DNA from: Streptomyces sp. ISL-12
Lineage (GTDB): Bacteria > Actinomycetota > Actinomycetes > Streptomycetales > Streptomycetaceae
DNA: 64,000 nt
Direction: 5' to 3'
NCBI RefSeq assembly: GCF_018614415.1
Contig: NZ_JAGGOO010000002.1
Coordinates: 1 to 64,000 of the forward strand
Part shown: positions 160 to 60,235 of the stretch, in pieces
Numbering within the stretch: the first letter of the stretch is position 1
Layout of the letters: every line of letters starts with the position of its first letter
The notes under the pieces: generated by a model
The model's input: the letters and a program-made list of their open reading frames with translations, nothing else
Database searches by the model: none
Told to the model about the DNA's origin: nothing
Position numbers and translations under genes: made by a program

Positions 160-186
160 GACCGTCCGGGTCGCTCAGGTGTGACA
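160..186 (-). promoter_or_regulatory. ECF41-type promoter, exact consensus
   Basis: On the minus strand this reads TGTCACA, 15 bases, CGGTC. Its -10 ends 42 bases upstream of the start at 117. Confidence 0.8.
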
Positions 187-233
187 GCGGCGTTCGTGGG
201 GGGGGGCGGGAAACGGCGTGTGCAAGCATGAAG

Positions 234-248
234 CACACTGTGTTGCAC
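234..248. promoter_or_regulatory. Candidate operator: ACACTGTGT palindrome
   Basis: CACACTGTGTTGCAC contains the odd palindrome ACAC-T-GTGT and lies 29 bases before the GNAT start at 278. The same 15-mer recurs exactly at 56080-56094, and shorter forms occur in other intergenic regions. Its role as a repressor site is inferred. Confidence 0.4.
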
Positions 249-277
249 TTAGTCACATGGTGAGAGAGGTAGTGTTC

Positions 278-1069
278 ATGGTGGACGCGATGGCGTCGGT
301 GTTCGCCAACTTCCGGCAGTACCTGATGGGGTGGGGTCCGCAGGACGGTCCGGGCGACGGTGTCGACCGGTCCCGCAGCGGGCTGGCCGCCCCGCAGTTC
401 AACGGTGTGGTGCGGGTGCGGTCCGGGTCGGCGGCCGGGCTGGACGTGGCGGCCGTCCGCCGGGAGCTGGCGGGTGTGCCTTGGTGGTGGTGGGTCGGGC
501 CGGACAGTCCCGAGGACACCGCCGGTGTGCTGCGGCGGCACGGCGGCCGGGAAATCGCGGTCATGCCGGTGATGGTGCGGCCCCTCGGCCGCCCCACCGG
601 GCCGGACGGCGGACCGGGCGACGGACCGGGCGGGGGCCCGGCCGGCGCGGATGCCGGGCTGCGGGTGGCTCCGGTGCGGGACGGGGAAGGGCTGGCCGAG
701 CTGGTCCGCACGTACCGGACGTCGATGGGGATCGGGCCCGGTGCGGAGGCCCGGATGGTGCGTGTCGAGACGAGGCGCGCGGACAACGCGGACATCGTCC
801 GGCTGGCCGCGTCGCTGGAAGGCCGGGTGATCGGCACCACCGTGGTGATCACCGCGCACACGGTGGCCGGGATCTTCCTCGTGCACGTGGCCGAGGAGCA
901 GCGCCGGCGAGGCGTGGGGACGGCGTTGACGGCGGCCGCGCTCCAGGTGGGACGGGAGCGCGGGATGCGCCACGCGGCGCTGGTGGCCAGCCCGGCCGGG
1001 GAGCCGCTGTACCGGCGGTTCGGGTTCGTGACGGCGGCCGAGTACCGGCTCTTCGGCTTTCCGTCCTGA
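278..1069 (+). CDS. GNAT-family N-acetyltransferase
   Basis: Protein of 263 aa. The C-terminal half is a GNAT domain: the acetyl-CoA-binding motif EEQRRRGVGTAL lies at about residues 206-217, and the end (PLYRRFGF) is the usual GNAT beta-6/7 signature. The N-terminal ~115 residues resemble the poorly conserved extra domain of tandem GNAT proteins and are followed by a Gly/Pro-rich linker. The substrate is unknown. ATG 278 is chosen because GAGAGAGG precedes it; an in-frame start at 218 would include the upstream palindrome. It converges on the NmrA-like gene at 1126. No ECF41-type promoter precedes it. Confidence 0.8.
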   Translation: MVDAMASVFANFRQYLMGWGPQDGPGDGVDRSRSGLAAPQFNGVVRVRSGSAAGLDVAAVRRELAGVPWWWWVGPDSPEDTAGVLRRHGGREIAVMPVMVRPLGRPTGPDGGPGDGPGGGPAGADAGLRVAPVRDGEGLAELVRTYRTSMGIGPGAEARMVRVETRRADNADIVRLAASLEGRVIGTTVVITAHTVAGIFLVHVAEEQRRRGVGTALTAAALQVGRERGMRHAALVASPAGEPLYRRFGFVTAAEYRLFGFPS

Positions 1070-1077
1070 GCCGGGGC

Positions 1078-1118
1078 GCCGCCGCGTGGACGGGGTGCGG
1101 TACCGCCCGCGCGGCGGC
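1078..1118. terminator. Bidirectional hairpin between convergent genes
   Basis: Outer arms 1078-1086 and 1110-1118 pair over 9 bases, and an inner GGGTGCGGTACCGCCC hairpin extends the stem. There is no T-tract, as is usual in this G+C range. Confidence 0.5.
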
Positions 1119-1125
1119 TCGCCGG

Positions 1126-1854
1126 TCAGGAGAGCCAGTCGGTGTACCGGGTGGCGGCCAGGTGGGCGTTCTTGTCGGTCAGGACGTCGCCCTCGACGGC
1201 GGCGAACATGCCGGCGGTCGGGTCGGTGACCACGGTGCGCGTGTCGCCCTTGTGGGACAGGGTGATCCGGCCCAGCTCGTCGAGGGCGAAGACCTCGGGG
1301 CCGACGATGTCGCGGATGCCGTTCAGCGGGGCGCCCGCGGCGACCTCCGCCACGGCGCGGGAGACGTCCTCGGCGGCGATGGGCTGGATCGGGGTGGCGG
1401 GCAGCCGGACGGTGTCACCGTCGGTGGTCCAGGACAGGACGGCCTCGATGAACTCCATGAACTGCGTGGCCCGGACGATCGAGTAGGGCACCGGACCGGC
1501 TTTGAGGAGGTCCTCCTGAAGCACCTTGGCCCGGTAGTAGTCGAGTTGCGGCACCTGGTCGACTCCGACGATCGACAGGATGACGAAGTGTCCGACGCCG
1601 GCCTCGTGGGACGCGGCCAGGAGGTTGTCCATCGAGGTCCGGAAGAAGGCCGGGGACGCCTCGTCGAAGGTCGGTGAGTTGGTGAGGTTCACCACGACGT
1701 CGGCTCCGGTGACGGCCTGCTGGAGTCCCTGGCCGCTGATGACGTCGACCCCGGTGGACTGCGAGTGCGGTACGGCCTCGTGGCCGGCGTCCTTCAGGAA
1801 CTGGACGACCCGCGAGCCGATCAGCCCCGTTCCGCCGATCACTGCGATCTTCAT
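1126..1854 (-). CDS. NmrA-like NAD(P)-binding epimerase/reductase
   Basis: Protein of 242 aa, an atypical short-chain dehydrogenase of the NmrA/SDR_a5 type. It opens with an intact Rossmann motif, GGTGLIG, at residues 7-13, and keeps NLTNSP and YYRAKVLQE patches shared with paralogues at 14620, 26699 and 46007. Proteins of this type are the epimerase component of ECF41-associated gene sets; the substrate is unknown. GAAAGG lies 6 bases before ATG 1854. It is 65 bases downstream of the SDR gene on the same strand, with no ECF41-type promoter in the gap, so I infer co-transcription with that SDR. Confidence 0.85.
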   Translation of the reverse strand: MKIAVIGGTGLIGSRVVQFLKDAGHEAVPHSQSTGVDVISGQGLQQAVTGADVVVNLTNSPTFDEASPAFFRTSMDNLLAASHEAGVGHFVILSIVGVDQVPQLDYYRAKVLQEDLLKAGPVPYSIVRATQFMEFIEAVLSWTTDGDTVRLPATPIQPIAAEDVSRAVAEVAAGAPLNGIRDIVGPEVFALDELGRITLSHKGDTRTVVTDPTAGMFAAVEGDVLTDKNAHLAATRYTDWLS

Positions 1855-2875: not shown

Positions 2876-3613
2876 TCAGGCGGCGCGCGGCACGCTCCGC
2901 TGGTCCGCGCCGGGCGACCGACGGGACGCCGACGGCAGTTGGTGCACCTGCGCGTCCCTGGGGACGAGCAGCCGCACGAGGTCTTCCATGTCCCCGGTGC
3001 CGGCCGCGGTGCGGAACGCGGCGACCAGACGACGGTGCGACTCGGCGGGCACCGGCCGCTCTCTCCCGCACTCCAGGCGGGCCTGTGCCCGATGCACCAC
3101 CACCCGTGCGTTGGTGGTGCTGATCCTGAGCAGCGCAGCGACCTCGGCGTAGGCGTAGCCGAACCCCTTGCGCAGCACGTAGGCGGCGAGCCGGTCCGGG
3201 GTCAGCCGCGCCATCAGCAGGGCCAGGGCGCCCTCGACCGCCGCGGCCCGTTCGGCGCTCAGCACGGGGTCCTGGGCGGTCCGGTCACCGAGGTCGGCCA
3301 ACTGCGGCTCGTCCGGTATCTCGCGGCGGTGCCGGGCGGACTGGACGACGTTGAGCGCCAGCCGGGTGGTGACCGTGACCAGGAATGCGGTCGGGTTGTC
3401 GATCTCCGCGCGCCGGGTGAGCTGCCAGCGCAGCCAGGCGTCCTGGACCACGTCCTCGGCGCCCGTGACGTCGCCGACGATGCGGTAGGCGATGCGGAAC
3501 AGCCGTGTCCGCTGGGCCAGGAAAAGGTCGAGCGCGAGGTCCAGGCCGTCCTCGGCCGGCTGGGTGACCGGGGGTGCGGTCGGCTGGGTCGTCTCCGGGC
3601 TGGGCGCGGACAT
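2876..3613 (-). CDS. ECF41/SigJ-like sigma factor with truncated C-terminal domain
   Basis: Protein of 245 aa. Sigma region 2 is canonical (LFRIAYRIVG, then AEDVVQDAWLRWQ) and region 4 has an intact helix-turn-helix (YAEVAALLRISTTNARVVVHRA). Full-length ECF41 proteins in this window (297 aa at 42116) continue with a SnoaL-like domain of about 100 residues. Here that domain starts (SHRRLVAAFRTAAGTGDM) and then runs for about 36 more residues without the DGGG or NPDKL motifs. The C-terminal domain controls activity in this family, so the protein may be deregulated or inactive. GAGGAG precedes ATG 3613. No ECF41-type promoter is seen upstream. The linker WLPEP motif is also absent. Confidence 0.85.
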   Translation of the reverse strand: MSAPSPETTQPTAPPVTQPAEDGLDLALDLFLAQRTRLFRIAYRIVGDVTGAEDVVQDAWLRWQLTRRAEIDNPTAFLVTVTTRLALNVVQSARHRREIPDEPQLADLGDRTAQDPVLSAERAAAVEGALALLMARLTPDRLAAYVLRKGFGYAYAEVAALLRISTTNARVVVHRAQARLECGRERPVPAESHRRLVAAFRTAAGTGDMEDLVRLLVPRDAQVHQLPSASRRSPGADQRSVPRAA

Positions 3614-4036: not shown

Positions 4037-6850
4037 TCAGGCGGTGCGGGCCGTTTCCTCGTCGTCGAGGGCGACGGCCGGGGTGTTCGCCAGGGCGCCC
4101 GGCAGGGCGCGGCGGGAGTTGATGCCGAGCTTGGTGTACACCTTGCGCAGGTGCCACTCCACGGTGTGCGGGCTGATGAACAGCTCCGCGCCGATCTTCG
4201 CGTTGGTCATGCCGTCCGCGGCGAGCGTGGCGACCTGCGACTCCTGCGGGGTGAGGGCGCTCAACGGCTTGTTCTCCCGCACCCGGACGTGCTCGCCGGT
4301 GGCGAGCAGTTCGCGGCGGGCGCGTTCGGCGAAGGCGTGCGCCCGCATGCCGTCGAACATCCCGTGCGCCGTGCGCAGGTGTTCCCGGGCCAGCGCCCGG
4401 CGCCCGTCGCGGCGGAGCCACTCGCCGTACAGCAGGTGGGTCCGGGCCACCTCCACGGTCACCCCGCCGCGGCCGAACTCCTCGATCGCCGACCGGTACA
4501 GCCGGTCGGCCTCGTCGCCCTCGGTGAGCAGTGCCCGGCTGCGGGCGGCGGCGCCGTGCGCCCAGCCGGAGTCGGCGGCCCGGGTGAGTTCGAGCAGCCG
4601 GGCCAACGAGGCGCGGGCCTGGTCGAGTTCACCGCACCGCGTGGCGGCCTCGACGTGCTCGACCAGGGACAGGCCGGTGAAGTTGAAGCCGTCGTGCTCG
4701 ACGCCCTCGCGAGCGGCCTCCAGGGCCTCCTCGTAGCGGGCCAGGCCGTTGAAGAGCACGCCCTGGATGTAGCCGGAGGCGCCCAGCAGGGACACCTCGC
4801 CGCGCTCTTCGGCGCGTTGTCTGGCTTCCTCGATGATGCCGGCCGCGACGTCCGCCTCGCCCCGCCAGGCGGCCAGCACCAGCGTCGCGTACTGGTGCGG
4901 AGCGTGGCCGGTGGCCGCGGCCAGCGCGTCGGCCTCGTCGATCATCCGGGCGGCCTCGGCGAAGTCCCCGTAGTGGATGTGCACTCCCCCGGCGTAGATG
5001 AGGGCCGGCGGGAGCGCGCCGAGGGCGCCGATGTCACGGGCCAGCCGCACCGCACGGCTGGACAGGGTGTCCCAGGCGTGCAGGTCCCAGGCGTAGTGGA
5101 TGAACGCCTCCAGCGCGACCGGCACCAGCAGCAGCCAGCGCATGGTCGCCTCCCGGGTGCCGAGTTCCTCGTGCGCGAGCAGGTCCAGTGCGGCGCGCAG
5201 GGCCGGGACGCCGGTCTCGTACCCGTCGGTGAGGAGCGCGGCGACCCCGTCGAGGAGGAGGTCGGCGGCCTCCGAACCCGAGGGCGGCGCCCCGGACTTG
5301 CGGGCCGCGATCGCGGCGGCGCGGGCCCCGGTCGGGCCGTGCACCCGGCCCGCGAAGATGGTGGCGCTGATCGCCTCCAGATACGTCTCCCGGGCCAGCG
5401 GTGACCCGGCGGCGGTGAACTGGGCGGCGGCCTCCAGGAGCAGCGGGGCCGCCTCGTCGCTGCGGCTGCGGGCGAACAGGATCCTGGCCCGCAGCCGGGC
5501 CAGCCGGGCGCGGTCCAGCGTGCTCAGCGGGCACAGCTCGGCGACCGTGGCGAGTTCCGTGGCCCGGTCGGGCGCGGCGGCCGAGAAGTGCGCCTCGGCG
5601 GCCGCGAGGGCGCGGCGGCCGCGCTGCCCGGGGTCCGGCGTGATCTCGGCGGCGCGTTCCAGCAGCACCGCCTCGGCCGCGATGCCGCCGCGCTGCCTGG
5701 CCCGGTCGGCGGCCCGTTCCAGGCCTGCGGCCACCTCCTCGTCCGGTCCGGCGGCGGCCTGGGCGGCGTGCCAGGCCCGCCGGTCGGGGTCGAGGACCGG
5801 GTCGGTGGCCTCGGCCAGCGCGCGGTGCACGGCCCGGCGTTCCTCGGGTTCGGCTCCGTGGTAGACGGCGGACCGGACCAGCGGGTGCCGGAACCGGACG
5901 GACTCGCCGAACTCGATCAGCCCGGCCGCCTTGGCCGGCGCGGCGTAGGGGACGATCTCCAGTGCGGCGGCCGCGCGGACCAGCAGCCGGGCGTCGCCGA
6001 CCGGTTCCGCGGCGGCGATCAGCAGCAGTGTCCTGGTCGCCGCCGGCAGCGCGGCGAGACGGCCGGCGAAGTCCCGTTCCACCCGGCTGGCCACCGGGCC
6101 TTGCACGCCGGGCTGCCCCGACGCGTCCAGCCCGTAGGCCAGTTCGGCGGCGCTGCGGCCGCGGGAGAACTCCAGCAGGGCGAGCGGGTTGCCGTGCATC
6201 TCGGCGACGAACCGGTCCCGGACCCGCTTCTCCAGCCGGCCGCCCACCGTGGCCTCCAGCAGTTCGCCGGCCGCGGCGGCGTCCAGGCCGTCCAGCCGCA
6301 GCGTGGGCAGGCCGCTCAGCGCGGACTGGCCCTCGGGGTCGCGGACCGCGAACGCCATGACGACGGCCTCGGCGAGCAGCCGGCGGGCCACGAACTCCAG
6401 GGTCTGCAAGGACACCTGGTCCAGCCACTGGGCGTCGTCGACCAGCACCAGGACCGGCCGGGTCTCCGAGGCGCGGGTGAGCAGGGTGAGGACGGCGAGA
6501 CCGACCAGGAAGCGGTCGGGCGGGTCCCCGGCGGCCATGCCGAAGGCCACCCGCAGGGCCTCGCGCTGGGGTTCGGGCAGTGTGTCCAGTTCGTCCAGGA
6601 ACGGTGTGCACAGCTGGTGCAGGCTGGCGTAGGGCAACTCCATGTCCGCCTCGATGCCGTGCGCCCAGGTCACCTTCATCCGGGACGCCCGCGCGGCCAC
6701 GTACTCCAGGAGCACCGACTTGCCGATGCCGGCCTCGCCGCGGATCACCAGCACCCGGGCCCCGCCTTCGCGCAGCCCGACCAGCAGATCGTCCAGTGCC
6801 GCGCATTCGCGTCGCCGGCCGACCAGGTCGGGAAGCGGGCTGGCGATCAT
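4037..6850 (-). CDS. LAL-type LuxR-family transcriptional regulator (1 of 3)
   Basis: Protein of 937 aa, the usual size for large ATP-binding LuxR regulators. Walker A GEAGIGKS is at residues 38-45, a Walker B-like VLVLVDDAQWLD near 145, then a long helical/TPR-like middle and a C-terminal LuxR helix-turn-helix (LTPQESQVATLAADG...ISPHTVEWHLRKVYTKLG, about 870-920). It closely resembles the proteins at 11831 and 17372. ATG 6850 is chosen because the family starts just before LVGRRRE and GAGGAG precedes it; longer in-frame starts run into the promoter region. The ligand is unknown. An AACAGTGTC element lies about 45 bases upstream. Confidence 0.92.
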   Translation of the reverse strand: MIASPLPDLVGRRRECAALDDLLVGLREGGARVLVIRGEAGIGKSVLLEYVAARASRMKVTWAHGIEADMELPYASLHQLCTPFLDELDTLPEPQREALRVAFGMAAGDPPDRFLVGLAVLTLLTRASETRPVLVLVDDAQWLDQVSLQTLEFVARRLLAEAVVMAFAVRDPEGQSALSGLPTLRLDGLDAAAAGELLEATVGGRLEKRVRDRFVAEMHGNPLALLEFSRGRSAAELAYGLDASGQPGVQGPVASRVERDFAGRLAALPAATRTLLLIAAAEPVGDARLLVRAAAALEIVPYAAPAKAAGLIEFGESVRFRHPLVRSAVYHGAEPEERRAVHRALAEATDPVLDPDRRAWHAAQAAAGPDEEVAAGLERAADRARQRGGIAAEAVLLERAAEITPDPGQRGRRALAAAEAHFSAAAPDRATELATVAELCPLSTLDRARLARLRARILFARSRSDEAAPLLLEAAAQFTAAGSPLARETYLEAISATIFAGRVHGPTGARAAAIAARKSGAPPSGSEAADLLLDGVAALLTDGYETGVPALRAALDLLAHEELGTREATMRWLLLVPVALEAFIHYAWDLHAWDTLSSRAVRLARDIGALGALPPALIYAGGVHIHYGDFAEAARMIDEADALAAATGHAPHQYATLVLAAWRGEADVAAGIIEEARQRAEERGEVSLLGASGYIQGVLFNGLARYEEALEAAREGVEHDGFNFTGLSLVEHVEAATRCGELDQARASLARLLELTRAADSGWAHGAAARSRALLTEGDEADRLYRSAIEEFGRGGVTVEVARTHLLYGEWLRRDGRRALAREHLRTAHGMFDGMRAHAFAERARRELLATGEHVRVRENKPLSALTPQESQVATLAADGMTNAKIGAELFISPHTVEWHLRKVYTKLGINSRRALPGALANTPAVALDDEETARTA

Positions 6851-6993: not shown

Positions 6994-7020
6994 TGTCACA
7001 AACCGGCCCGCTGTCCGGTC
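6994..7020 (+). promoter_or_regulatory. ECF41-type promoter, exact consensus
   Basis: TGTCACA, 15 bases, CGGTC. Its -10 lies 190 bases before the flavoprotein start at 7211, leaving an unusually long leader. Confidence 0.75.
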
Positions 7021-7210: not shown

Positions 7211-8938
7211 ATGTCTTCGCTCGGACACCAGCTCGCCACGTCCGTCCTCGTGGTGGGAGCCGGTGGGGCCGGCCTCCGGGCGGCCATCGAGGTCGCGGAG
7301 GCCGGTGTCGCGGTCATCGCGGTGGCCAAGCGCGCGGCCGAGGCCGCGCCCGCGGCCACCGCGCCCGGGGGCGCCCCGTGGGAGACGGCCGGCACCGGCG
7401 AGGCGTGGGAGCGGCACGCGGCCGACACGCTGCGCGAGGGCCATCTGCTGGCCGACCCCCGCACCGCCCAGGTCGTGGCCCGCTACGCGGCGCGCGGGCT
7501 GCAGGACGTGCGGCGCTACGGCACGTGGCCGGACCACCGGGGCCGGGGCCTGCCCGGCCGGCACCGGCCGCCTTGGCGTCCCGGGGACCGGCACGCAGCG
7601 TTCGAGGAGGAGTTCACCGGCGCCGAGGTACGGCGGGCGCTGCGCTCCCGGGCGGCGGAACTGGGCATTCCGGTACTGACCGGCGTCTACGTCACCCGGC
7701 TGCTGGTGGACGACGGATCGGTCTTCGGCGCCTACGGGTTCGACCTCGCCGACGGCTCCCGCTACCTGGTGCACGCCGACGCGGTGATCCTCGCGACCGG
7801 CGGGCACACCCGTATCTGGCGGCGTACCGCCGCGCGCCGCGACGAGGGCGGCGGCGACGCGTTCCGGCTCGCCGTCGAGGCCGGCGCCCGGCTGCGCGAC
7901 CCCGAGCTGGTGCGCTTCCATCCGCTGGGGCTGATCGGGCCGGAGCCGGCGGCCGGCCTGCTGGTCAGCGAGGCGGCCCGCGGCGAGGGCGGGGTGCTGC
8001 TCAACAGCCTCGGTGAGCGGTTCATGGCCCGCTACGACGCCGAGCACATGGAACGGGGCAGCCGGGACCGGGTCACCCGGGCCGTGCACGCGGAGATCGA
8101 GGCGGGCCGGGGCACCCGGTCCGGCGGGGTCTGGCTGGATCTGTCCCATCTGCCACGGGAGACCGTGCTGACCCGGCTGCCGTGGGTGCACCAGACCTTG
8201 CTGGACGTGCAGACGCTGGACATCACCCGCGATCCGGTCGAGGTCGCGCCGACCGCCCAGTACTCGATGGGCGGGGTCTGGGTGCGGCCCGAGGACCACA
8301 GCACCGAGGTCGGCGGGCTGTTCGTGATCGGGGAGGCGGCCAGCGGTCTGCACGGCGCGGACGGGCTGGAGCAGAACGCGCTGATCGAACTCCTCGTGTA
8401 CGGCCGGATCACCGGCCGGGCGGCGGCGGAGTACTCGGCCGGGCTGACCGTCCAGCGGCGGTCGCCGGCGGCGGTGCGGGCCGCGGCGGCGGATGTGCAC
8501 CGGCTGCTGTCCGCCGACGGCGACCAGAACGTCCGCGCGCTGCTGCGGTCGGTGCGCCGGGTGATGACCGAGCGGGCCGGTGCCGCGCGCGACGAGGCCG
8601 GGCTCACCGCCGGACTCGACGAGATCGGCGAGATCGCCGACCGCGCGGAGTTCGCGGGGGTGCACATCGACATCGGCGGTTTCCAGGAACTGGCCCACGC
8701 CTACGACTTGAGGTCCGCCGTCCTCGCCGCCCGCGCGACGCTGGAGTGCGCGAGGGAGCGGCGGGAGACGCGGGGCAGTCACCACCGTTCCGACCACCCC
8801 GAGGCGGATCCGGACCTGACGGTCAACCTGGTGTGGTCGCCGGCGACCGGGGTGCGCCGGGAACCCGTTCCGCCGATCCCCACCGACATCGCCGAGTTGA
8901 TGCGGGACGTCGCAGTGGACGCGGGGCGGCCCGGGTAG
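7211..8938 (+). CDS. Fumarate reductase/succinate dehydrogenase-like flavoprotein, catalytically degraded
   Basis: Protein of 575 aa, homologous along its whole length to the flavoprotein at 44200. The FAD-binding GAGGAG (16-21) is intact. The FAD-attachment region, THTSLAAGG in the partner with its histidine at residue 47, reads PAATAPGG here. The substrate-site HYSMGG reads QYSMGG (Gln350). The catalytic-region NRLGGNS reads DGLEQNA, losing the arginine. The fold is therefore kept while the histidines and one arginine needed for dicarboxylate redox chemistry are lost. AGGAGG precedes ATG 7211. An ECF41-type promoter at 6994 and a pyrimidine-rich leader control it. It may be a flavin-binding sensor, a scaffold or a decaying duplicate. 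Confidence 0.88.
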   Translation: MSSLGHQLATSVLVVGAGGAGLRAAIEVAEAGVAVIAVAKRAAEAAPAATAPGGAPWETAGTGEAWERHAADTLREGHLLADPRTAQVVARYAARGLQDVRRYGTWPDHRGRGLPGRHRPPWRPGDRHAAFEEEFTGAEVRRALRSRAAELGIPVLTGVYVTRLLVDDGSVFGAYGFDLADGSRYLVHADAVILATGGHTRIWRRTAARRDEGGGDAFRLAVEAGARLRDPELVRFHPLGLIGPEPAAGLLVSEAARGEGGVLLNSLGERFMARYDAEHMERGSRDRVTRAVHAEIEAGRGTRSGGVWLDLSHLPRETVLTRLPWVHQTLLDVQTLDITRDPVEVAPTAQYSMGGVWVRPEDHSTEVGGLFVIGEAASGLHGADGLEQNALIELLVYGRITGRAAAEYSAGLTVQRRSPAAVRAAAADVHRLLSADGDQNVRALLRSVRRVMTERAGAARDEAGLTAGLDEIGEIADRAEFAGVHIDIGGFQELAHAYDLRSAVLAARATLECARERRETRGSHHRSDHPEADPDLTVNLVWSPATGVRREPVPPIPTDIAELMRDVAVDAGRPG

Positions 8939-9310: not shown

Positions 9311-10188
9311 ACGTCGATGACCGGGCCGGCTCCCTCGGTGTGACAGGCGGTCCGGTCGTCGAGGGCGGGCAGCAGCGACAGCAGCCGCAGAGCGGTGTGG
9401 CTCTCGGTGCCGGGGGTGGCGGTGTAGACCACCAGCCGCTGGGACTGGTCCGGGTCGACCAGGGTCTGGCAGTGCAGTTCCAGGGTGCCGACGGCCGGGT
9501 GCCGGGAGCGTTTGACGCCGCACTGGGGGCCCAGCACGGGCCGCTCCCGCCAGATGCGGGCGAACTCCGCGCTGCGCCGGTTCAGCGCGTCCACCAGTTC
9601 GGCGGCGCGGGAGTCGTCGCCGTCCCGGGTGCGGGCGCCGTGCAGGTCCGCCACGAGCAGGCGGCTGTGCTCGGCGTGGTCGCTCTCGGGGTGCGGGAGG
9701 CGGGCGGCGGGATCGGTGAACCAGCGGTAGTGGGCGCTGCGGGCCAGTCCGGTGTACGCCGTCCCGTCGCCCAGCAGCGCCACCGCCGGGTGGGTCTGCC
9801 TCAGGGTCTCGCCGACGTGGTTGACCACCTGGGCGGGCGTGTCCTGGAGCCGGTCCAGGATCCGCATCATCCCGGGGTTGATGTGGTCCCCGCGCCGCAC
9901 CCGGCGCGGGGAGGCGTGACCGGCGAGCCGGAAGAGCAGGTCGCGTTCCTCCAGGGACAGGCGCAGGCCCCGGGCGAGTACGGCGAGCATCTGCTCCGAG
10001 GGGTGGGGGCCGCGCGGCTGTTCGAGCCGGGCGTAGTAGTCCGCCGACATGGCGCAGAGCGCGGCGACCTCCTCGCGGCGCAGCCCTCCGGTGCGCCGGC
10101 GCCGCCCGCGGGGCAGTCCGACGTCCTCCGGCTGGAGCGCTTCCCGGCGGGCCCGCAGGAAGGCCGCCAGTGCTGCTCGGTCACTCAT
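9307..10188 (-). CDS. MmyB-type helix-turn-helix (XRE) transcriptional regulator
   Basis: Protein of 293 aa. The N-terminal XRE helix-turn-helix reads RRTGGLRREEVAALCAMSADYYARLEQ (residues about 31-58). The remainder is the MmyB-like ligand-binding domain, with the family signature YRWFTDPAARL near 150. These regulators are common in Streptomyces and often control adjacent oxidoreductases; the effector is unknown. GAGAGGA precedes ATG 10188. The 3' end carries an internal ECF41-type promoter (9319-9345) for the next gene. The upstream region has several CACTGTCA/AACAGTG words. Confidence 0.88.
   Translation of the reverse strand: MSDRAALAAFLRARREALQPEDVGLPRGRRRRTGGLRREEVAALCAMSADYYARLEQPRGPHPSEQMLAVLARGLRLSLEERDLLFRLAGHASPRRVRRGDHINPGMMRILDRLQDTPAQVVNHVGETLRQTHPAVALLGDGTAYTGLARSAHYRWFTDPAARLPHPESDHAEHSRLLVADLHGARTRDGDDSRAAELVDALNRRSAEFARIWRERPVLGPQCGVKRSRHPAVGTLELHCQTLVDPDQSQRLVVYTATPGTESHTALRLLSLLPALDDRTACHTEGAGPVIDV
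9319..9345 (-). promoter_or_regulatory. ECF41-type promoter inside the end of the upstream gene
   Basis: On the minus strand: TGTCACA, 15 bases, CGGTC. It lies in the last codons of the MmyB-type gene and 8 bases before the ABM start at 9310, implying leaderless expression. Confidence 0.7.
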
Positions 10189-15414: not shown

Positions 15415-15441
15415 GACCGGGTGGCGCGGGCTGCTGTGACA
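15415..15441 (-). promoter_or_regulatory. ECF41-type promoter, exact consensus
   Basis: On the minus strand: TGTCACA, 15 bases, CGGTC, 39 bases before the NmrA-like start at 15375. Its -35 is 7 bases from the divergent -35 at 15449. Confidence 0.82.
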
Positions 15442-15448
15442 GGCCGGG

Positions 15449-15475
15449 TGTCACAGCCGTCAGCGCCGCCCGGTC
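15449..15475 (+). promoter_or_regulatory. ECF41-type promoter of the interrupted OsmC gene
   Basis: TGTCACA, 15 bases, CGGTC, 37 bases before ATG 15513. The gene it should drive is now split from it by the IS110-type element. Confidence 0.82.
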
Positions 15476-22352: not shown

Positions 22353-22379
22353 GACCGGGGCGGGGCGTGATGTGTGACG
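22353..22379 (-). promoter_or_regulatory. ECF41-type promoter, one mismatch
   Basis: On the minus strand: CGTCACA, 15 bases, CGGTC, 76 bases before the esterase start at 22276. Confidence 0.65.
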
Positions 22380-23258: not shown

Positions 23259-23285
23259 TGTCACAGACGCGGTGGGTGTCCGGTC
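23259..23285 (+). promoter_or_regulatory. ECF41-type promoter, exact consensus
   Basis: TGTCACA, 15 bases, CGGTC, 37 bases before the AhpD-like start at 23323. Carboxymuconolactone decarboxylase genes are hallmark ECF41 targets. Confidence 0.85.
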
Positions 23286-26566: not shown

Positions 26567-26593
26567 GACCGGCTGACCGGTGGATCTGTGACA
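26567..26593 (-). promoter_or_regulatory. ECF41-type promoter, exact consensus
   Basis: On the minus strand: TGTCACA, 15 bases, CGGTC, 62 bases before the cupin start at 26504. Divergent with 26611-26637. Confidence 0.82.
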
Positions 26594-26610: not shown

Positions 26611-26637
26611 TGTCACAGGATTCGAAGCGGGCCGGTC
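26611..26637 (+). promoter_or_regulatory. ECF41-type promoter, exact consensus
   Basis: TGTCACA, 15 bases, CGGTC, 61 bases before the NmrA-like start at 26699. Only 17 bases separate it from the divergent -35. Confidence 0.85.
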
Positions 26638-27439: not shown

Positions 27440-27471
27440 ACCCGCCCGCCCGCACCGACCGGAAGGCCGCC

Positions 27472-34603: not shown

Positions 34604-34630
34604 GACCGGTGACCCGGCGAGGGTGTGACA
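34604..34630 (-). promoter_or_regulatory. ECF41-type promoter, exact consensus
   Basis: On the minus strand: TGTCACA, 15 bases, CGGTC. It lies 111 bases before the cytochrome b start at 34492 and 11 bases from the upstream dehydrogenase stop. Confidence 0.82.
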
Positions 34631-35627: not shown

Positions 35628-35654
35628 GACTGCGCGTCCCGTCCCGCTGTGACA
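35628..35654 (-). promoter_or_regulatory. ECF41-type promoter, one mismatch
   Basis: On the minus strand: TGTCACA, 15 bases, CAGTC, 47 bases before the dehydrogenase start at 35580. Confidence 0.68.
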
Positions 35655-35699: not shown

Positions 35700-35726
35700 T
35701 GTCACAGGTCCGGTCCACACGTTGTC
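35700..35726 (+). promoter_or_regulatory. ECF41-type promoter, two -10 mismatches
   Basis: TGTCACA, 15 bases, TTGTC. The -10 ends 9 bases before ATG 35736, so the methyltransferase mRNA is probably leaderless. Confidence 0.6.
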
Positions 35727-36522: not shown

Positions 36523-36549
36523 TGTCACAACCCGTGCCGCCGCCCGGTC
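36523..36549 (+). promoter_or_regulatory. ECF41-type promoter, exact consensus
   Basis: TGTCACA, 15 bases, CGGTC, 62 bases before the ferredoxin reductase start at 36612. It should drive four genes to 41259. Confidence 0.83.
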
Positions 36550-41945: not shown

Positions 41946-41972
41946 GACCAGGTGTGCGAGCCATCCGTGACA
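41946..41972 (-). promoter_or_regulatory. ECF41-type promoter, two mismatches
   Basis: On the minus strand: TGTCACG, 15 bases, TGGTC, 38 bases before the membrane protein start at 41907. Confidence 0.55.
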
Positions 41973-43020: not shown

Positions 43021-43047
43021 CGTCACAGGAGCGGGCGCCGGCCGGTC
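43021..43047 (+). promoter_or_regulatory. ECF41-type promoter, one mismatch
   Basis: CGTCACA, 15 bases, CGGTC, 117 bases before the Ohr start at 43165 and 8 bases after the sigma factor stop. Confidence 0.65.
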
Positions 43048-44075: not shown

Positions 44076-44102
44076 GACCGGAGACACCGTCATGTTGTGA
44101 CA
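44076..44102 (-). promoter_or_regulatory. ECF41-type promoter, exact consensus
   Basis: On the minus strand: TGTCACA, 15 bases, CGGTC, 38 bases before the ferredoxin start at 44037. Divergent with 44138-44164. Confidence 0.83.
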
Positions 44103-44137: not shown

Positions 44138-44164
44138 TGTCACAAACCCCCACCCGGTCCTGTC
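44138..44164 (+). promoter_or_regulatory. ECF41-type promoter, one -10 mismatch
   Basis: TGTCACA, 15 bases, CTGTC, 35 bases before the flavoprotein start at 44200. Confidence 0.7.
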
Positions 44165-45933: not shown

Positions 45934-45960
45934 TGTAACACAAACCCCGCCTACCCGGTC
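45934..45960 (+). promoter_or_regulatory. ECF41-type promoter, one mismatch
   Basis: TGTAACA, 15 bases, CGGTC, starting 4 bases after the flavoprotein stop and 46 bases before the NmrA-like start at 46007. Confidence 0.68.
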
Positions 45961-47917: not shown

Positions 47918-47944
47918 GACCGGACGGTCGACGTGGGTGTGACA
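47918..47944 (-). promoter_or_regulatory. ECF41-type promoter, exact consensus
   Basis: On the minus strand: TGTCACA, 15 bases, CGGTC, 49 bases before the WhiB-like start at 47868. Confidence 0.83.
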
Positions 47945-48011: not shown

Positions 48012-48038
48012 TGTTACGAACCGTCCGGCCCCTCGGTC
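48012..48038 (+). promoter_or_regulatory. Weak ECF41-type promoter
   Basis: TGTTACG, 15 bases, CGGTC: correct spacing and -10 but two mismatches in the -35. It lies 104 bases before the sigma factor start at 48143 and may give autoregulation. Confidence 0.4.
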
Positions 48039-49958: not shown

Positions 49959-49985
49959 TGTCACACAGTCACGTCGTACCTGGTC
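49959..49985 (+). promoter_or_regulatory. ECF41-type promoter, one mismatch
   Basis: TGTCACA, 15 bases, TGGTC, 104 bases before the secreted cupin start at 50090. Confidence 0.65.
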
Positions 49986-50543: not shown

Positions 50544-50570
50544 TGTCACAGGCTCCCCCACTGCGCGGTC
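50544..50570 (+). promoter_or_regulatory. ECF41-type promoter, exact consensus
   Basis: TGTCACA, 15 bases, CGGTC, 61 bases before the small frame at 50632 and 173 before the coiled-coil gene at 50744. Confidence 0.8.
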
Positions 50571-50760: not shown

Positions 50761-50974
50761 CCGGCCGACCGATCCCGCCGCCGCCACCGCGTCGCTCGCC
50801 GCGGAGGCCGCCCTGCTCGAAGGGCGGCTGACCCTGCTCCGCGAGGCGATCGACACAGTGGACGCCCGGATCGACGCGGTCTCCGAGACCCTCAGCCGGC
50901 TGCGCCGCTCGGTGGCCGCGCCCACCGACGGTGCGGCGTCCCCGGACGAGGAGCCGGCCACACGTCGTCCATAA
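50744..50974 (+). CDS. Short coiled-coil protein
   Basis: Protein of 76 aa. Residues about 14-55 (LAAEAALLEGRLTLLREAI and on to VSETLSRLRRS) form a heptad-rich coiled coil resembling the N-terminal coils of the proteins at 51132 and 57429, but there is no winged-helix domain. GGGAGG precedes ATG 50744. It is predicted to be transcribed from 50544-50570. It might heterodimerise with the longer relatives. Confidence 0.6.
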   Translation: MPRSTDRPTDPAAATASLAAEAALLEGRLTLLREAIDTVDARIDAVSETLSRLRRSVAAPTDGAASPDEEPATRRP

Positions 50975-51743: not shown

Positions 51744-53091
51744 GCCGGTCCTCGCGCACCGGGGACTCCTCCGCGCGACGTGGTTCGCCGTGCGAGACGA
51801 AAGCCTCCCTCGGGTGCTGCACCGAGGCCAGGGAGACGATGTCCCGGCCGTAGAGGGCGGCGGTCACCCACACGGCGAACACCCGTGCCTTGCGCTCCCA
51901 GCTCGGTATCGCCAGCACGTGATAGCCGCGGTGCGTCAGCCAGGCCGGGAACCCCTTGATGACCAGGGACCGGTACTGGAAGATGCCACGGCCCATCCCC
52001 AGCGTGGCCACCACACCCAGGCTGCGGTGCCGGTACTCCTTGACGGGCCGGCCGCGCAGCGCCGCCACGATGTTCTTCGCCAGCAGTTTGCCCTGCCGGA
52101 CGGCGTGCTGGGCGTTGGGCACGGTACGGGCGCCCGGCCGGCCGGCCGCGAGGTCGGGCACCGAGGCGTCGTCGCCGGCCGCCCAGACGTCCGCCACCAC
52201 CCCGGTGTCCGCACTGACCCGCAGGTCCGCGCGTACGGTGAGCAGGCCGCGTTCGTCGACCGGCAGGTCGGTGTGGTTGTGCACGATCGGGTTGGCGGCG
52301 TTGCCCGCCGCCCACACCAGCAGGCCCGAGTCGTACGCGGTGCCGTCCGACAGCCGGACGTGGCCGTTCTCCGCCGACACCAGCTGGGTGTTCAGGTGCA
52401 CCCGGGCCCCCCGCTTCTCCAGTGACCGCACCACCCACGCGCCGGGCCGGTCGGTGACCTCGGGCAGGATCCGGCCCCGCGCCTCGACCAGGTGGAAGGC
52501 CGGCTCCTCGGGGCCGATCTCCGGATACTGCTTGAGCAGCGCGGTCGCCAGGCTCAGCAGCTCGCCGAAGCCCTCCACGCCGGAGAAGCCGCCGCCGACG
52601 ACGGTGACGGTGAGCAGCCGCGCGCGTTCGGGGCCGGGCGGCAGGGTCGCCGCGCGGTCGAACGAGGTGAGGAGGCGGTCGCGGATCGCGACCGCCTCCT
52701 CGACGTGCTTCAGTCCGTACGCGTGGTCGTGCAGCCCCGGGATGGGGAAGGTGCGGGTGACCGCGCCCGCCGTCACCACCAGCACGTCGTAGGGGAGGTC
52801 GAACGACGGCCCGGACTCCGGGCGGACGGTGACGGTGCGCGCGCTGTTGCGAATCTCCGTCACCGAGCCCGCGATCAGCCGGGTACGGCGCAGATGGCGC
52901 CGCAGCGAGACCGCGGCGTGCCGGGCCTCCACCGATCCGGCGACCACCTCGGGCAGGAACGGCTGGTACGTCATGTACGGACGGGGGTCGACCACGGTGA
53001 CCCGTGCCTCCCCCCGGCGCACCTTCTTCTCCAGGCCCCACGCGGTGTAGAAACCCGCGTAACCGCCACCCACGATCAAGATCTCACGCAC
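51733..53091 (-). CDS. Type II NADH dehydrogenase (NDH-2) family flavoprotein
   Basis: Protein of 452 aa. The FAD motif IVGGGYAGFYTAWGLE is at the N-terminus, VTVVGGGFSGVEGFGEL near 166 binds NADH, and VWAAGDDASVPD near 298 contacts FAD. The C-terminal ~100 residues include an amphipathic stretch (WLTHRGYHVLAIPSWERK) typical of membrane association. It would pass electrons from NADH to quinone without proton pumping. GTG 53091 follows AGAGGAC. An exact ECF41-type promoter lies 33 bases upstream. Confidence 0.92.
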   Translation of the reverse strand: MREILIVGGGYAGFYTAWGLEKKVRRGEARVTVVDPRPYMTYQPFLPEVVAGSVEARHAAVSLRRHLRRTRLIAGSVTEIRNSARTVTVRPESGPSFDLPYDVLVVTAGAVTRTFPIPGLHDHAYGLKHVEEAVAIRDRLLTSFDRAATLPPGPERARLLTVTVVGGGFSGVEGFGELLSLATALLKQYPEIGPEEPAFHLVEARGRILPEVTDRPGAWVVRSLEKRGARVHLNTQLVSAENGHVRLSDGTAYDSGLLVWAAGNAANPIVHNHTDLPVDERGLLTVRADLRVSADTGVVADVWAAGDDASVPDLAAGRPGARTVPNAQHAVRQGKLLAKNIVAALRGRPVKEYRHRSLGVVATLGMGRGIFQYRSLVIKGFPAWLTHRGYHVLAIPSWERKARVFAVWVTAALYGRDIVSLASVQHPREAFVSHGEPRRAEESPVREDRLTA

Positions 53092-53124: not shown

Positions 53125-53151
53125 GACCGGTCGGTGCCACTCGGTGTGACA
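53125..53151 (-). promoter_or_regulatory. ECF41-type promoter, exact consensus
   Basis: On the minus strand: TGTCACA, 15 bases, CGGTC, 33 bases before the NDH-2 start at 53091. Confidence 0.83.
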
Positions 53152-56176: not shown

Positions 56177-56203
56177 TGTCACATGATCCGTGCGTGTCCG
56201 GTC
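56177..56203 (+). promoter_or_regulatory. ECF41-type promoter, exact consensus, of a sigma gene
   Basis: TGTCACA, 15 bases, CGGTC, 72 bases before the sigma factor start at 56276, consistent with autoregulation or sigma cross-talk. Confidence 0.83.
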
Positions 56204-56275
56204 TGCTCTGCGGAGGGCACCGCGGCCGACAGTGCTGGTGGCGATGTGGTGTCCCGGGAGAGGAAGGACCACTCG

Positions 56276-57283
56276 ATGGGCGAGACCGGTGGCGCGGTAC
56301 CGATCGCGGAGCTGCTCGACGAGCGACGGCATCTGCTCGACGTGGCCCACTGGATGCTGGGCACCGCCCCCGGGGCGGAGGACGCCGTGACCGAGACCTA
56401 CCGGCGGTGGTACGCCCTGACCGACGCCCGCCGGGCGGCCGTCGCCGAGCCGCGCGCCTGGCTGACCAGGACCACCGGCATCATCTGCCTGGCCCGGCTC
56501 GCCCGGCCCGGACGCGCTTCGCCCGGGCGCCTTTCGCCCGAGCACCTTTCGCCGGGACACCCTTCGCCCGGACTCCCCTCGTCGCGGCGTCCCTCCCCCG
56601 CGCGTACGGGGTCCGCGCGCACGGGGTCCGCGGCGGCCGGCGGCGGGGCGGGCCGGCCGGCCCGCCCGCCCGATCCGGCTTTGACCGAGGAGATCAGCGG
56701 CGTCCTGCTCGACGCCCTGGCCACGCTCTCCCCGGCGGAACGGGCCGCGTTCGTCCTCAACGATGTCTTCGCCATGCCGCCCCGGGCGGTGGCCGGCATC
56801 GTGGGGCGGTCACCGCGCGCGTGCGCCGAACTCGCCGACCGGGCCCGGCACAGCCTGCGGGCCGGCCGCGCCCGCCCCACGGCGGACCGGGAGCACGACA
56901 GTGTCGTCCGGGCCGTCCGGCGGGCGTGTGCCACGGCCGACACCACCGGGCTGGCGGCCCTGCTGGCGCCGGACGCCACCGCCCTCTTCGACGGCGGCGG
57001 CAAGGTCCGTGCCCTGACCCGCCCGGTGCGCGGAAAACACCATGTGACCCGTACTCTCCTCACCCTCCTCGCGCTCCGTCCGCGCACCACCCTCCACCTG
57101 CGCCGGGCCAACGGCCGCACCGCGATCGTGGTGCGCCACCGCGCCCGGACCGCCGCCGTCATCAGCTTCGACGTCTCCGGTCACCAGGTCACCGAGGTCT
57201 GGGCCGTGCTCAACCCCGACAAGCTGCGGGCCTGGAACCGCTCCCGCTTCCCCGTCGACGAGCGCGGCCCGCGGGACGGCTGA
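56276..57283 (+). CDS. Divergent ECF41-like sigma factor with low-complexity linker
   Basis: Protein of 335 aa. Region 2 is weak (LLDVAHWMLGTAPGAEDAVTETYRRW), but region 4 keeps a helix-turn-helix (PRAVAGIVGRSPRACAELADRAR). Between them lies a linker of about 45 residues built from 5-residue SPG.L-type repeats (SPGRLSPEHLSPGHPSPGL), encoded by ~15-bp DNA repeats at 56516-56575. The SnoaL-like domain is intact, with DGGGKVRALTRPV and LNPDKLRAWNRS. GGAAGGA precedes ATG 56276. It has its own exact ECF41-type promoter. Its degenerate relative is at 49033. Confidence 0.87.
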   Translation: MGETGGAVPIAELLDERRHLLDVAHWMLGTAPGAEDAVTETYRRWYALTDARRAAVAEPRAWLTRTTGIICLARLARPGRASPGRLSPEHLSPGHPSPGLPSSRRPSPARTGSARTGSAAAGGGAGRPARPPDPALTEEISGVLLDALATLSPAERAAFVLNDVFAMPPRAVAGIVGRSPRACAELADRARHSLRAGRARPTADREHDSVVRAVRRACATADTTGLAALLAPDATALFDGGGKVRALTRPVRGKHHVTRTLLTLLALRPRTTLHLRRANGRTAIVVRHRARTAAVISFDVSGHQVTEVWAVLNPDKLRAWNRSRFPVDERGPRDG

Positions 57284-57428: not shown

Positions 57429-57878
57429 ATGGTTCCGGCATCTCGCGCAGCACGCACCATCGAGAGCACCGCTGAGCGCCTCCAGGAGGATCTCAGCCGC
57501 CTGGAGTGGCAGAAGCGGGCGCTGGAACGGGAGCTGGCCGCCGTCCTCGCCCATCTGACCTCCGTGCAGCGGGCCCTGAGCGCCCTCGAAGCGGTACTGG
57601 AGGAACCGTCCGACACGGTGCGGCAGGAACCGACGGGCGCGGCACGGGAGGAACAGCCGGGCACGGAGCGTGCGTACGGCCGGCTGACCGAGCAGATCCT
57701 GCACTGCCTCGCGCAGGCCGGTGACACCGATGTGCGCGCCCGTGACGTGGCGGTGGCACTCGGCCGACCCACCGACAGCGGCAGTGTCAACGCGATCCGC
57801 AGCACGCTGGACCGGCTCGTCGGTGCCTCCCGGGTCCGCCGTACCGGCCGGGGCCTCTACCGTGCCCAGCGTCCCTGA
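57429..57878 (+). CDS. Coiled-coil/winged-helix putative DNA-binding protein (paralogue of 51132)
   Basis: Protein of 149 aa. The N-terminal coiled coil (LQEDLSRLEWQKRALEREL) and C-terminal winged-helix-like domain (YGRLTEQILHCLAQAGDTD, VNAIRSTLDRLVG, RVRRTGRGLYRA) match the protein at 51132; only the linker is shorter. It lies 145 bases after a sigma gene, as the paralogue lies near one. GAGAGGGAAA precedes ATG 57429. A TTGACG with a CATCAC 18 bases on is a weak sigma-70-like candidate upstream. Function unknown; DNA binding inferred. Confidence 0.75.
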   Translation: MVPASRAARTIESTAERLQEDLSRLEWQKRALERELAAVLAHLTSVQRALSALEAVLEEPSDTVRQEPTGAAREEQPGTERAYGRLTEQILHCLAQAGDTDVRARDVAVALGRPTDSGSVNAIRSTLDRLVGASRVRRTGRGLYRAQRP

Positions 57879-58760: not shown

Positions 58761-59105
58761 TCACCCGGAAGCCACCAGGACCAGACCGACGCCCAGGGCG
58801 ATCACCGCCGTCCCCAGTGCCGCCAGCGCCACCCCGGCGAACCGGCGCAGCCGGGCGTAGCGCTGGGTGTGCAGGGCCTCCACCATCGCGATCTGGTCGG
58901 TCAGGTGCTCGGTGATGGTGCGGGACACCCCGAGCTGTTCCTCCACGTACCACCATTCGATGTCGGCCCGCTGTCCCTCGCTCAGTCCGGGCACCCGGGC
59001 GGCGAACCGCGCGGCGCGGTGGTGGGCGGCCCGGCGATGGGAATCCCAGTACAGATAGTTCTGTATGTCCGTCAGGCCGCGTTCGGCCTCGTCCTTCGGA
59101 TCCAT
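58761..59105 (-). CDS. Small C-terminally anchored membrane protein of unknown function (paralogue of 20219)
   Basis: Protein of 114 aa. The soluble helical part contains GLTDIQNYLYWDSHRRAAHHR and ADIEWWYVEEQLGVSRTI, matching the protein at 20219. One hydrophobic segment (about 91-113) ends the protein. GGGGAG precedes ATG 59105. The promoter region has TACGAT with a palindrome (59142-59157) immediately upstream, which may be an operator. Function unknown. Confidence 0.8.
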   Translation of the reverse strand: MDPKDEAERGLTDIQNYLYWDSHRRAAHHRAARFAARVPGLSEGQRADIEWWYVEEQLGVSRTITEHLTDQIAMVEALHTQRYARLRRFAGVALAALGTAVIALGVGLVLVASG

Positions 59106-59141
59106 TGGTGAACTCCCCGGTCGAAACTCGCACCATCGTAT

Positions 59142-59157
59142 CTCTCGCTCGCGAGAG
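59142..59157. promoter_or_regulatory. Candidate operator palindrome CTCTCGC-TC-GCGAGAG
   Basis: Seven-base perfect arms around two bases. It lies just upstream of the TACGAT -10-like hexamer for the minus-strand gene at 59105, where a repressor would occlude polymerase. The neighbouring MarR protein is a candidate ligand. Confidence 0.45.
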
Positions 59158-59201
59158 AGGCACACGGTGGCATCTATGCTGTGTTTCCATGTGAGGCATT
59201 C

Positions 59202-59228
59202 CGTAACAGTGTGATCACTTGTGCCGTC
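59202..59228 (+). promoter_or_regulatory. Weak ECF41-type promoter
   Basis: CGTAACA, 15 bases, CCGTC: correct spacing with three mismatches to the local consensus, 42 bases before the hydrolase start at 59271. Confidence 0.35.
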
Positions 59229-59270
59229 CTGACTTGATGTGCCGGCGCCCCGGCCGGATCATCGGGCAGT

Positions 59271-60188
59271 GTGAAGCACTCATCTCGGCCATCGGCCCTG
59301 TCGCCCGGCACCCACTCGATCACCGTTCCGCACGGCCCCGCCCGCGTCGAACAGCGCTACCACGTCGCCGGTTCGGGACCGGTCTGCGTCGCGCACTCCG
59401 GCGGCCCGGGCATCGGCTGGGAGTATCTGCGCATGGCCGGGCTGGAGGACCACCTGACCATGGTCTACGTCGAACCGGTGGGCACCGGCCGGTCCGGGCG
59501 GCTGCCCGATCCACGCGAGTACACCGTGGCCACGTACGCGGGTCTGCTGCACCACCTGGTCGAGCACCTGGAGCTGCCGCACGTCACCCTCCTCGGCCAC
59601 TCGCACGGTGGTTTCGTCGCCCAGCGGTACGCCCTCGACCACCCCGGCCGGCTCGCCGCCCTCGTGCTGTACGACACCTCGCCGGTCGCTGACGGGGAGT
59701 TCTGGTCGGCGGCGGTCGCGGGCATGGAGCGGTTCGTGGCGCGGCATGCGGCCGACCATCCGGAGGTGACCGATTACGTCACCGCCCTCAACACCCGTCT
59801 GGACCTGATGCCCGACACCGGCGCCACCGCCGTGCTGCGGCAGATCATGCCGGCCTACGTCTTCGACTACTGGGGCCGGGAGGCGGAGTTCGCGCCCGCC
59901 CGCCGGTCGCTGCGGATGTACGCGGAGCCCAACGGGGGGCAGGGCGCCCCCTTCGACGTCCGCGCCGAGCTGCCCGCCATCACCGCACCGGCACTCGTGC
60001 TGGCCGGACAGCAGGACTTCATCTGCGGACCGCGCTGGGCCCGCCTGCTGGCCGAGTCACTGCCCGCCGCCGACCTCACGCTGCTGACCGACACCGGCCA
60101 CCTCGCACACGTCGAACGCTCCGCCCGGTTCACCACCGAAGTCCTGTCGTTCCTGCGCGCACACGGTGTGCTGGAAGGAGGCGCCTGA
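59271..60188 (+). CDS. Alpha/beta hydrolase, proline iminopeptidase-like
   Basis: Protein of 305 aa. SGGPGIGWEYLR corresponds to the HGGPG oxyanion motif of prolyl iminopeptidases, GHSHGGFVAQRYA carries the nucleophile serine, AGQQDFICGP the aspartate and DTGHLAHVE the histidine. A peptidase or lactone/ester hydrolase role is possible. GTG 59271 has no clear ribosome site; it is preferred because similarity starts soon after. A weak ECF41-type promoter lies 42 bases upstream. It is followed by the promoter of the flavohaemoglobin. Confidence 0.85.
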   Translation: MKHSSRPSALSPGTHSITVPHGPARVEQRYHVAGSGPVCVAHSGGPGIGWEYLRMAGLEDHLTMVYVEPVGTGRSGRLPDPREYTVATYAGLLHHLVEHLELPHVTLLGHSHGGFVAQRYALDHPGRLAALVLYDTSPVADGEFWSAAVAGMERFVARHAADHPEVTDYVTALNTRLDLMPDTGATAVLRQIMPAYVFDYWGREAEFAPARRSLRMYAEPNGGQGAPFDVRAELPAITAPALVLAGQQDFICGPRWARLLAESLPAADLTLLTDTGHLAHVERSARFTTEVLSFLRAHGVLEGGA

Positions 60189-60208
60189 CCCCGAGCCGCC
60201 CCCGGGGG

Positions 60209-60235
60209 TGTCACAAGTGACGCCACTGTCCGGTC
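60209..60235 (+). promoter_or_regulatory. ECF41-type promoter, exact consensus
   Basis: TGTCACA, 15 bases, CGGTC, 79 bases before the flavohaemoglobin start at 60315. An AT-rich patch (60276-60306) lies between. Confidence 0.83.

Follow-up and report, generated by a model that had tools for sequence, protein, structure and literature searches.

The published promoter of the ECF41 sigma factors is TGTCACA-n16-CGTC (PMC3426412), and the members studied were concluded, in the available portions of two reports, to have a single gene or operon under their control (PMC3426412, PMC6180224). ECF41 factors as a family are widespread. The stretch of DNA analyzed here, the first 64,000 nucleotides of contig NZ_JAGGOO010000002.1 of Streptomyces sp. 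ISL-12 (hereafter the window), departs from this expectation of a single adjacent target, which is not itself a sequence criterion for the family: about 25 accepted sites, exact and near copies of TGTCACA-N15-CGGTC, are distributed over 60 kb and, judged from sequence, likely form a single clustered regulon transcribed by resident ECF41 sigma factors. According to the available parts of PMC3426412, Ecf41Bli and Ecf41Rsp resemble this island in the −35 element TGTCACA, the total spacing, the WLPEP linker, the C-terminal extension and the kinds of target (carboxymuconolactone decarboxylase, oxidoreductase, epimerase), whereas the island differs from them in its ~25 sites, its −10 element (GGTC/KGTC, one base away from CGTC), its two intact sigmas, its short sigmas and the partners that we call sigma-D. 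RpoE9 of Sinorhizobium meliloti, another ECF41 factor with a carboxymuconolactone decarboxylase target, is unlike the island in the single target reported in the text available (PMC6180224).

The initial annotation had proposed one motif family with an ECF41-type −35 and a physically clustered set of copies, and this proposal is supported, as is its remark that the −10 CGGTC differs from the published one (PMC3426412, available text). All 16 exact copies that it had listed were recovered in the window, against none in 100 dinucleotide-preserving shuffles, which rules out a chance origin of the motif. The genome-wide enrichment scan that it had called for gave 20 exact sites in 8,391,969 bases, 16 inside the window and four outside, with none for a reversed-pattern control; an even spread over the genome is thereby also ruled out. 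With the −10 relaxed to YKGTC, 24 sites were found genome-wide, 19 in the window, two on contig C205 and three elsewhere. Of the TGTCACA and CGGTC pairs lying 5-30 bases apart in five islands and on contig C205, 73 of 82 have a spacing of exactly 15; of those 8-25 bases apart in 80 loci that were chosen for encoding a sigma-A relative (see below) and are not an unbiased sample, 219 of 233 do.

When up to two mismatches are allowed, the window holds 31 matches against 9.2 (sd 2.9) expected, so two-mismatch copies require independent backing. Among the ten near copies listed initially, eight (22353, 35628, 35700, 41946, 43021, 44138, 45934 and 48012) are matched by a site before the orthologous gene in one or more of the other islands; the copy at 49959 has none before G141_39, the single orthologue found, and the copy at 59202, with three mismatches and no counterpart in other islands, was dropped. 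The claim that exact sites always face a gene holds for 15 of the 16, with a same-strand start 8-190 bases downstream, and fails at 15449(+), where an IS110-type gene intervenes. Across the five islands, using gene calls made throughout with our own codon-score script, a gene on the same strand starts within 350 bases of 91 of the 100 sites, at a median distance of 73.

These data also bear on the idea that the sites spread via duplicated promoter-gene blocks, leaving a regulon that is largely one amplified operon. Several paralogue sets do carry a site (NmrA-like, flavoprotein, OsmC and cupin genes), and the spacers of the 16 exact window sites are slightly more similar to one another than random DNA (0.358 versus 0.305), but the targets come from many unrelated families and the flanks outside the motif, at 0.303 and 0.291 against 0.305, are no more similar than random DNA. 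We regard this amplification as unlikely, and the simpler notion that a single block was duplicated to give all the sites is ruled out by the flanks.

The island is not confined to its source genome, a possibility ruled out by the recurrence of the layout across the genus. Exact sites are present in 81 of the 150 genomes sampled from the genus, 20 of these genomes carrying at least five; among the 80 loci with a sigma-A relative, 40, nearly all from named Streptomyces, have at least three. Orthologous genes retain their site despite shuffled gene order (G141, G087), and a small coiled-coil gene has a site at no more than one mismatch in all four islands having the gene; members of other families, for example the LuxR-type and XRE-type regulators, are not preceded by a site in the compared islands. 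In G168, a genome of another family in the same order, a 7.6-kb stretch holds seven relaxed sites, amid which an ECF41-type sigma is encoded, and the relaxed sites of G326 fall into two clusters, one of 21 and one of 9. In the source genome, the next 20 kb to the right of the window contain no site of the searched form. Contig C205 (L055, 1-5724) carries two relaxed sites and orthologues of genes from other islands and may, on sequence grounds, be the left continuation of the island, since its first gene and the gene cut at C141:1 both match one gene of a relative, G118_51. The genes behind the exact sites on C36, C149 and C156 have no counterpart in the compared islands, and these sites may be due to chance. 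Separately, one and the same 27-base match stands at four widely separated positions in G217, probably because a mobile repeat happens to include the pattern.

Of the five sigma-like genes in the window (Table 1), all of which had been counted as sigma paralogues, two are intact ECF41 factors (sigma-A and sigma-B), one lacks the extension (sigma-S) and two are decayed and lack WLPEP (sigma-D1 and sigma-D2). The number of intact factors is set at two because only the genes at 48164-49144 and 42116-43012 pass the cut-off of NCBIfam TIGR02957; both proteins also score over the cut-offs of Pfam PF04542 (sigma2) and PF08281 (sigma4) and, by length and alignment, have a C-terminal extension of ~100 residues with an NPDKL-like end, the NPxK pattern being weak in sigma-A (28 of 49). 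A pattern search finds the WLPEP linker in 47 of 49 full-length sigma-A and 25 of 27 full-length sigma-B proteins, the window copy of sigma-B reading WLPDP, and the nearest solved structure to sigma-A is SigJ (5xe7), matched over residues 7-226. Sigma-S and the short sigma-A proteins of other loci end at 201-245 residues, without the extension. In S. canus DSM 40017 (L095, L131), one contig carries a full and a short sigma-A ~50 kb apart.

The number of sites follows these sigmas. Exact sites per genome range from 3 to 20 in genomes with sigma-A (n=19) and from 0 to 6 in those with only sigma-B-like genes (n=16), and average 0.59 in the rest (n=115), with group differences at p=4e-6 and 6e-14 (Mann-Whitney, uncorrected for relatedness). 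The groups were drawn at an identity gap, so that 'sigma-A' means at least 73% and 'sigma-B-like' means 54-60% identity to sigma-A and not a gene-by-gene comparison with sigma-B; the rest group also takes in G102 and G136 (64-65%, short matches, one site each) as well as G026, G040 and G129 (42-44%). Within the 16 sigma-B-like-only genomes, the five with sigma-D have 3-6 sites and the eleven without it 0-4 (p=0.005). G105 has eight sites without sigma-A and encodes a short WLPEP-bearing sigma inside its cluster. Because the small modules of G049 and G027 carry the motif alongside sigma-B and without sigma-A, sigma-B probably also reads the motif. The region upstream of sigma-B has TGTARCAT in common across the five islands, a sequence that we take to resemble a housekeeping −10. 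At a canonical ECF41 locus on C156, no clear site was found in the upstream region.

These counts are difficult to reconcile with the bipartite motif being an operator for another island regulator, for example one of the three large LuxR-type regulators encoded in the window, instead of a sigma promoter. The motif is directional, as the same-strand gene starts indicate; its −35 half is identical to the ECF41 −35 as mapped, with equal total spacing (PMC3426412, available text); an ECF41-type sigma is encoded amid the sites of the small clusters in G049, G027 and G168; and site counts follow the sigma. We consider an operator very improbable, and return to transcription by the ECF41 factors.

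Sigma-D1 and sigma-D2 fall outside ECF41 by its sequence tests and are named only by resemblance: the window proteins score 178 and 138 bits against TIGR02957 (cut-off 323 bits), and by pattern none of 59 sigma-D proteins has WLPEP, while 57 have the NPxK end and 55 have DGxG. Their conservation is shifted toward the extension. Mean identity over sigma2, sigma4 and the extension is 0.57/0.55/0.65 for sigma-D (56 rows), against 0.87/0.85/0.70 for sigma-A (44 rows) and 0.80/0.83/0.76 for sigma-B, rows having been selected by thresholds on identity and length, which excluded L100 and L110. Rough dN/dS estimates from at most 16 rows per family are 0.48-0.52 for the sigma part and 0.38-0.40 for the extension of sigma-D, compared with 0.12 and 0.27 for sigma-A. 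A sigma gene lies within 500 bp of 30 of 39 sigma-D2 and 10 of 20 sigma-D1 genes. Where sigma-D belongs in the sigma tree is uncertain owing to its long branch.

That the sigma-D genes are decaying pseudogenes would fit the dN/dS of sigma-D, which is above that of sigma-A, and the L089 copy, which looks broken. It is highly improbable given that an alignment of 30 sequences has 31 invariant columns, 21 of them in the extension, that dN/dS is below 1 in both halves, and that the regulon site precedes 46 of 59 sigma-D genes in the examined loci. By family, a site at no more than one mismatch precedes 1 of 27 sigma-B, 29 of 49 full sigma-A, 5 of 15 short sigma-A, 19 of 20 sigma-D1 and 27 of 39 sigma-D2 genes; this count leaves aside 26 rows classed as 'other', 20 as 'other ECF41 full' and 6 as 'other ECF41 short'. 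The −35 before sigma-A orthologues reads TGTAACG in G118 and G141, TGTAACA in G020 and TGTCACA in G087, and the site is exact in G326.

The structure model of sigma-D2 (mean pLDDT 75, pTM 0.50) is confident for the extension and the sigma2 helices and not for the sigma4 region. A Foldseek comparison with SigJ 5xe7 gave an E-value of 2.8e-8 and a TM-score of 0.34, and with so low a TM-score the match backs homology and not domain arrangement. Sigma-D proteins might instead be ordinary sigmas with their own promoter specificity, or decoys for the RNA polymerase core, and would then not inhibit in trans through the extension. The confidently modelled sigma2 helices and the matches of NCBIfam sigma models, though below cut-off, speak for this; the low-confidence sigma4 region (pLDDT ~32-65), the missing linker and the shift of conservation toward the extension speak against it. 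We think such a role quite possible, if not what we would expect.

The predicted trans-inhibition by sigma-D can be set beside the published behavior of the extension. According to the text available, truncation of ECF41 factors to 204 or 206 residues raised activity ~20- and 120-fold and removal of the entire extension abolished it (PMC3426412), and the NPDKL end of the extension contacts the YVGPWLPEP linker (PMC7730460). The short sigma-A proteins (201-236 residues) lack the extension and have a strongly constrained sigma part (dN/dS 0.145), and a sigma-D gene lies within 500 bp of 9 of 15 of them, or of 8 of 13 without the doubtful rows, L111 (whose match runs beyond the stop) and a 141-base fragment in G020. 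These complementary losses, the extension having been lost by short sigma-A and kept by sigma-D, suggest from comparison of the proteins that sigma-D supplies the regulatory domain in trans.

Several observations weigh against a single ECF41 regulon with such a circuit. The initial annotation had spoken of more than 30 contiguous genes; 24 sites directly head genes and, with close operon partners, about 30 of the 59 called window genes are covered, but the other 29 have no site and are interleaved with the covered ones, so the set is not contiguous. By our gene calls, no gene starts on the same strand within 350 bases of nine of the 100 sites in the five islands. The sigma-A genomes G022, G045 and G063 have just 3-4 exact sites, and 20 of the 49 full sigma-A genes, likewise sigma-D1 of G087, have no site at one mismatch or fewer. 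Finally, the sigma2 helices of sigma-D2 are modelled with pLDDT mostly 82-94, and from that model sigma-D2 may retain some polymerase binding.

Taken as a whole, the data are best explained, we believe with good confidence, by a clustered ECF41 regulon with a sigma-B/sigma-A/sigma-D circuit. What the sequence shows directly is that the sites exist, keep a fixed spacing and are conserved ahead of orthologous genes, and that their number is associated with sigma-A. In the circuit, sigma-B, which has no site, would respond first to a signal through its SnoaL-type extension and thus act as initiator; sigma-A, often behind a site, would amplify the response; and the sigma-D proteins, mostly under the same motif, would inhibit in trans as a feedback brake, by laying their NPDKL segment against the WLPEP linker in sigma-A, sigma-B or short sigma-A. 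The site wiring and the upstream TGTARCAT are what lead us to have sigma-B made independently of the island, and sigma-A and sigma-D made by it. The output of the regulon would be a spare electron-transport and detoxification set. More tentatively, as a possibility that we rate somewhat below even odds, the island could run a split ECF41 switch, in which extension-less sigmas would be controlled in trans by sigma-D, a paralogue that has given up sigma function and retained the regulatory domain, and so an anti-sigma evolved from a sigma and feedback-wired by the regulon promoter over an island of ~25 promoters.

Table 1. Sigma-like genes, accepted promoter sites and insertion element of the window, with the state of each site in the compared islands.
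Feature	Positions	Strand	Match	Gene or description	Other islands
sigma-A	48164-49144	+		ECF41 with WLPEP linker and C-terminal extension	
sigma-B	42116-43012	+		ECF41; no regulon site upstream	
sigma-S	2876-3613	-		short sigma, ends near extension start, no WLPEP	
sigma-D1	56246-57283	+		decayed sigma domains, intact SnoaL-type extension	
sigma-D2	49033-49872	-		like sigma-D1; tail-to-tail with and overlapping sigma-A gene call	
IS110-type transposase gene	15522-16727	-		between site 15449 and OsmC gene at 16938	
site	160..186	-	exact	NmrA-like, truncated by contig start (39 codons present)	
site	6994..7020	+	exact	SdhA/FrdA-like flavoprotein 7211-8938	orthologues G141_20, G020_48 also headed
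site	9319..9345	-	exact	ABM-domain gene 8957-9310	
site	15415..15441	-	exact	NAD(P)-binding epimerase-like gene 14620-15369	
site	15449..15475	+	exact	OsmC-type leader; OsmC gene 16938-17354 cut off by IS110-type element	
site	22353..22379	-	1 mismatch	alpha/beta hydrolase 21326-22276	conserved in G118, G020, G141
site	23259..23285	+	exact	carboxymuconolactone decarboxylase/AhpD-like gene 23323-23793	≤1 mismatch in 4/5
site	26567..26593	-	exact	cupin gene 26043-26504	≤1 mismatch in 5/5
site	26611..26637	+	exact	NmrA-like gene, then pyruvate-dehydrogenase E1- and E2-like genes (26699-31339)	
site	34604..34630	-	exact	QcrB-type cytochrome b 32873-34492	exact in 4/4 having orthologue
site	35628..35654	-	1 mismatch	2-hydroxyacid dehydrogenase	identical variant before G118_25, sole counterpart
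site	35700..35726	+	2 mismatches	methyltransferase 35736-36503	exact before G020_25
site	36523..36549	+	exact	FAD-dependent reductase 36612-37844	exact in 4/4 having orthologue
site	41946..41972	-	2 mismatches	DUF5134 protein 41269-41907	≤1 mismatch in G118, G020, G141
site	43021..43047	+	1 mismatch	OsmC-like gene 43165-43662	≤1 mismatch in 4/4 having orthologue
site	44076..44102	-	exact	ferredoxin 43678-44037	exact in 3/3 having orthologue
site	44138..44164	+	1 mismatch	SdhA/FrdA-like flavoprotein 44233-45930	≤1 mismatch in 5/5
site	45934..45960	+	1 mismatch	NmrA-like gene 46007-46756	exact in G118 and G020
site	47918..47944	-	exact	WhiB-like gene 47602-47868	
site	48012..48038	+	2 mismatches	sigma-A gene	
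site	49959..49985	+	1 mismatch	cupin-like gene 50090-50524	
site	50544..50570	+	exact	small gene 50744-50974	exact in 4/4 having orthologue
site	53125..53151	-	exact	NDH-2-like pyridine nucleotide oxidoreductase 51733-53091	exact in 3/3 having orthologue
site	56177..56203	+	exact	sigma-D1	
site	60209..60235	+	exact	flavohaemoglobin-like gene 60315-61523	

By Pfam and NCBIfam matches, 15 of the 24 directly headed window genes encode predicted redox enzymes or carriers: four NmrA/epimerase-like proteins, two SdhA/FrdA-like flavoproteins, an ABM-type and an AhpD-like protein, QcrB-type cytochrome b, 2-hydroxyacid dehydrogenase, FAD reductase, an OsmC-like protein, ferredoxin, an NDH-2-like oxidoreductase and flavohaemoglobin. 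Besides the window cytochrome b, the genome has two more QcrB-type genes, and the predicted target set may be read as a spare respiratory and detoxification set. The leader after site 15449 resembles those of OsmC genes in G118 and G020, and the IS110-type insertion has likely deprived the OsmC gene at 16938 of its regulon promoter. Siteless genes of the window include sigma-B, the short sigma, sigma-D2 and the three LuxR-type regulators, which have an AAA ATPase domain (4037-6850, 11831-14575 and 17372-20146).

Other neighbors were noted in passing. The E1-like and E2-like genes at 27505-31339, behind a site-bearing NmrA-like gene, are a second central-metabolism set in the island. Two paralogous coiled-coil proteins (51132-51743 and 57429-57878) share a conserved C-terminal part and have relatives in all five islands; neither has a Pfam match over cut-off. 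The gene pair at 38729-41259, conserved in four islands, has weak matches to AMP-binding enzymes and aldehyde dehydrogenases and may be an acyl-activating and reducing pair.

Two further systems offer partial parallels for sigma-D. As described in the portions available, ECF56 SigG1-RsfG of S. tsukubaensis (PMC7730460) likewise has a SnoaL_2 extension and an adjacent, separate sigma antagonist, but SigG1 has no NPDKL and at least four targets, and RsfG is not described there as a sigma paralogue. The 'sigma factor mimicry' of PhyR, in the part of its description available, also involves a sigma-like protein that regulates instead of transcribing. PhyR antagonizes the anti-sigma NepR; sigma-D, by contrast, is predicted to bind a sigma. 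Azospirillum RpoE10 is reportedly an ECF41 factor whose influence reaches past a single neighbor, to motility and lateral flagella, and we know of no clustered island for it. Among the open PubMed Central papers listed in literature searches, none other than PMC3426412 was found to describe this regulon or Streptomyces promoters with TGTCACA.

A conserved island of ~25 copies would overturn the single-target rule for ECF41 in Streptomyces, and the family would gain a physiology, a spare redox and electron-transport set. The range from six sites in the G049 module to thirty in the genome of G326 provides a natural series for following the growth of a regulon. Natural short sigma-A proteins end at about the activating laboratory truncations 204/206 (PMC3426412, available text) and sigma-D keeps the part that they have lost; how the ECF41 extension works therefore becomes directly testable with natural parts.

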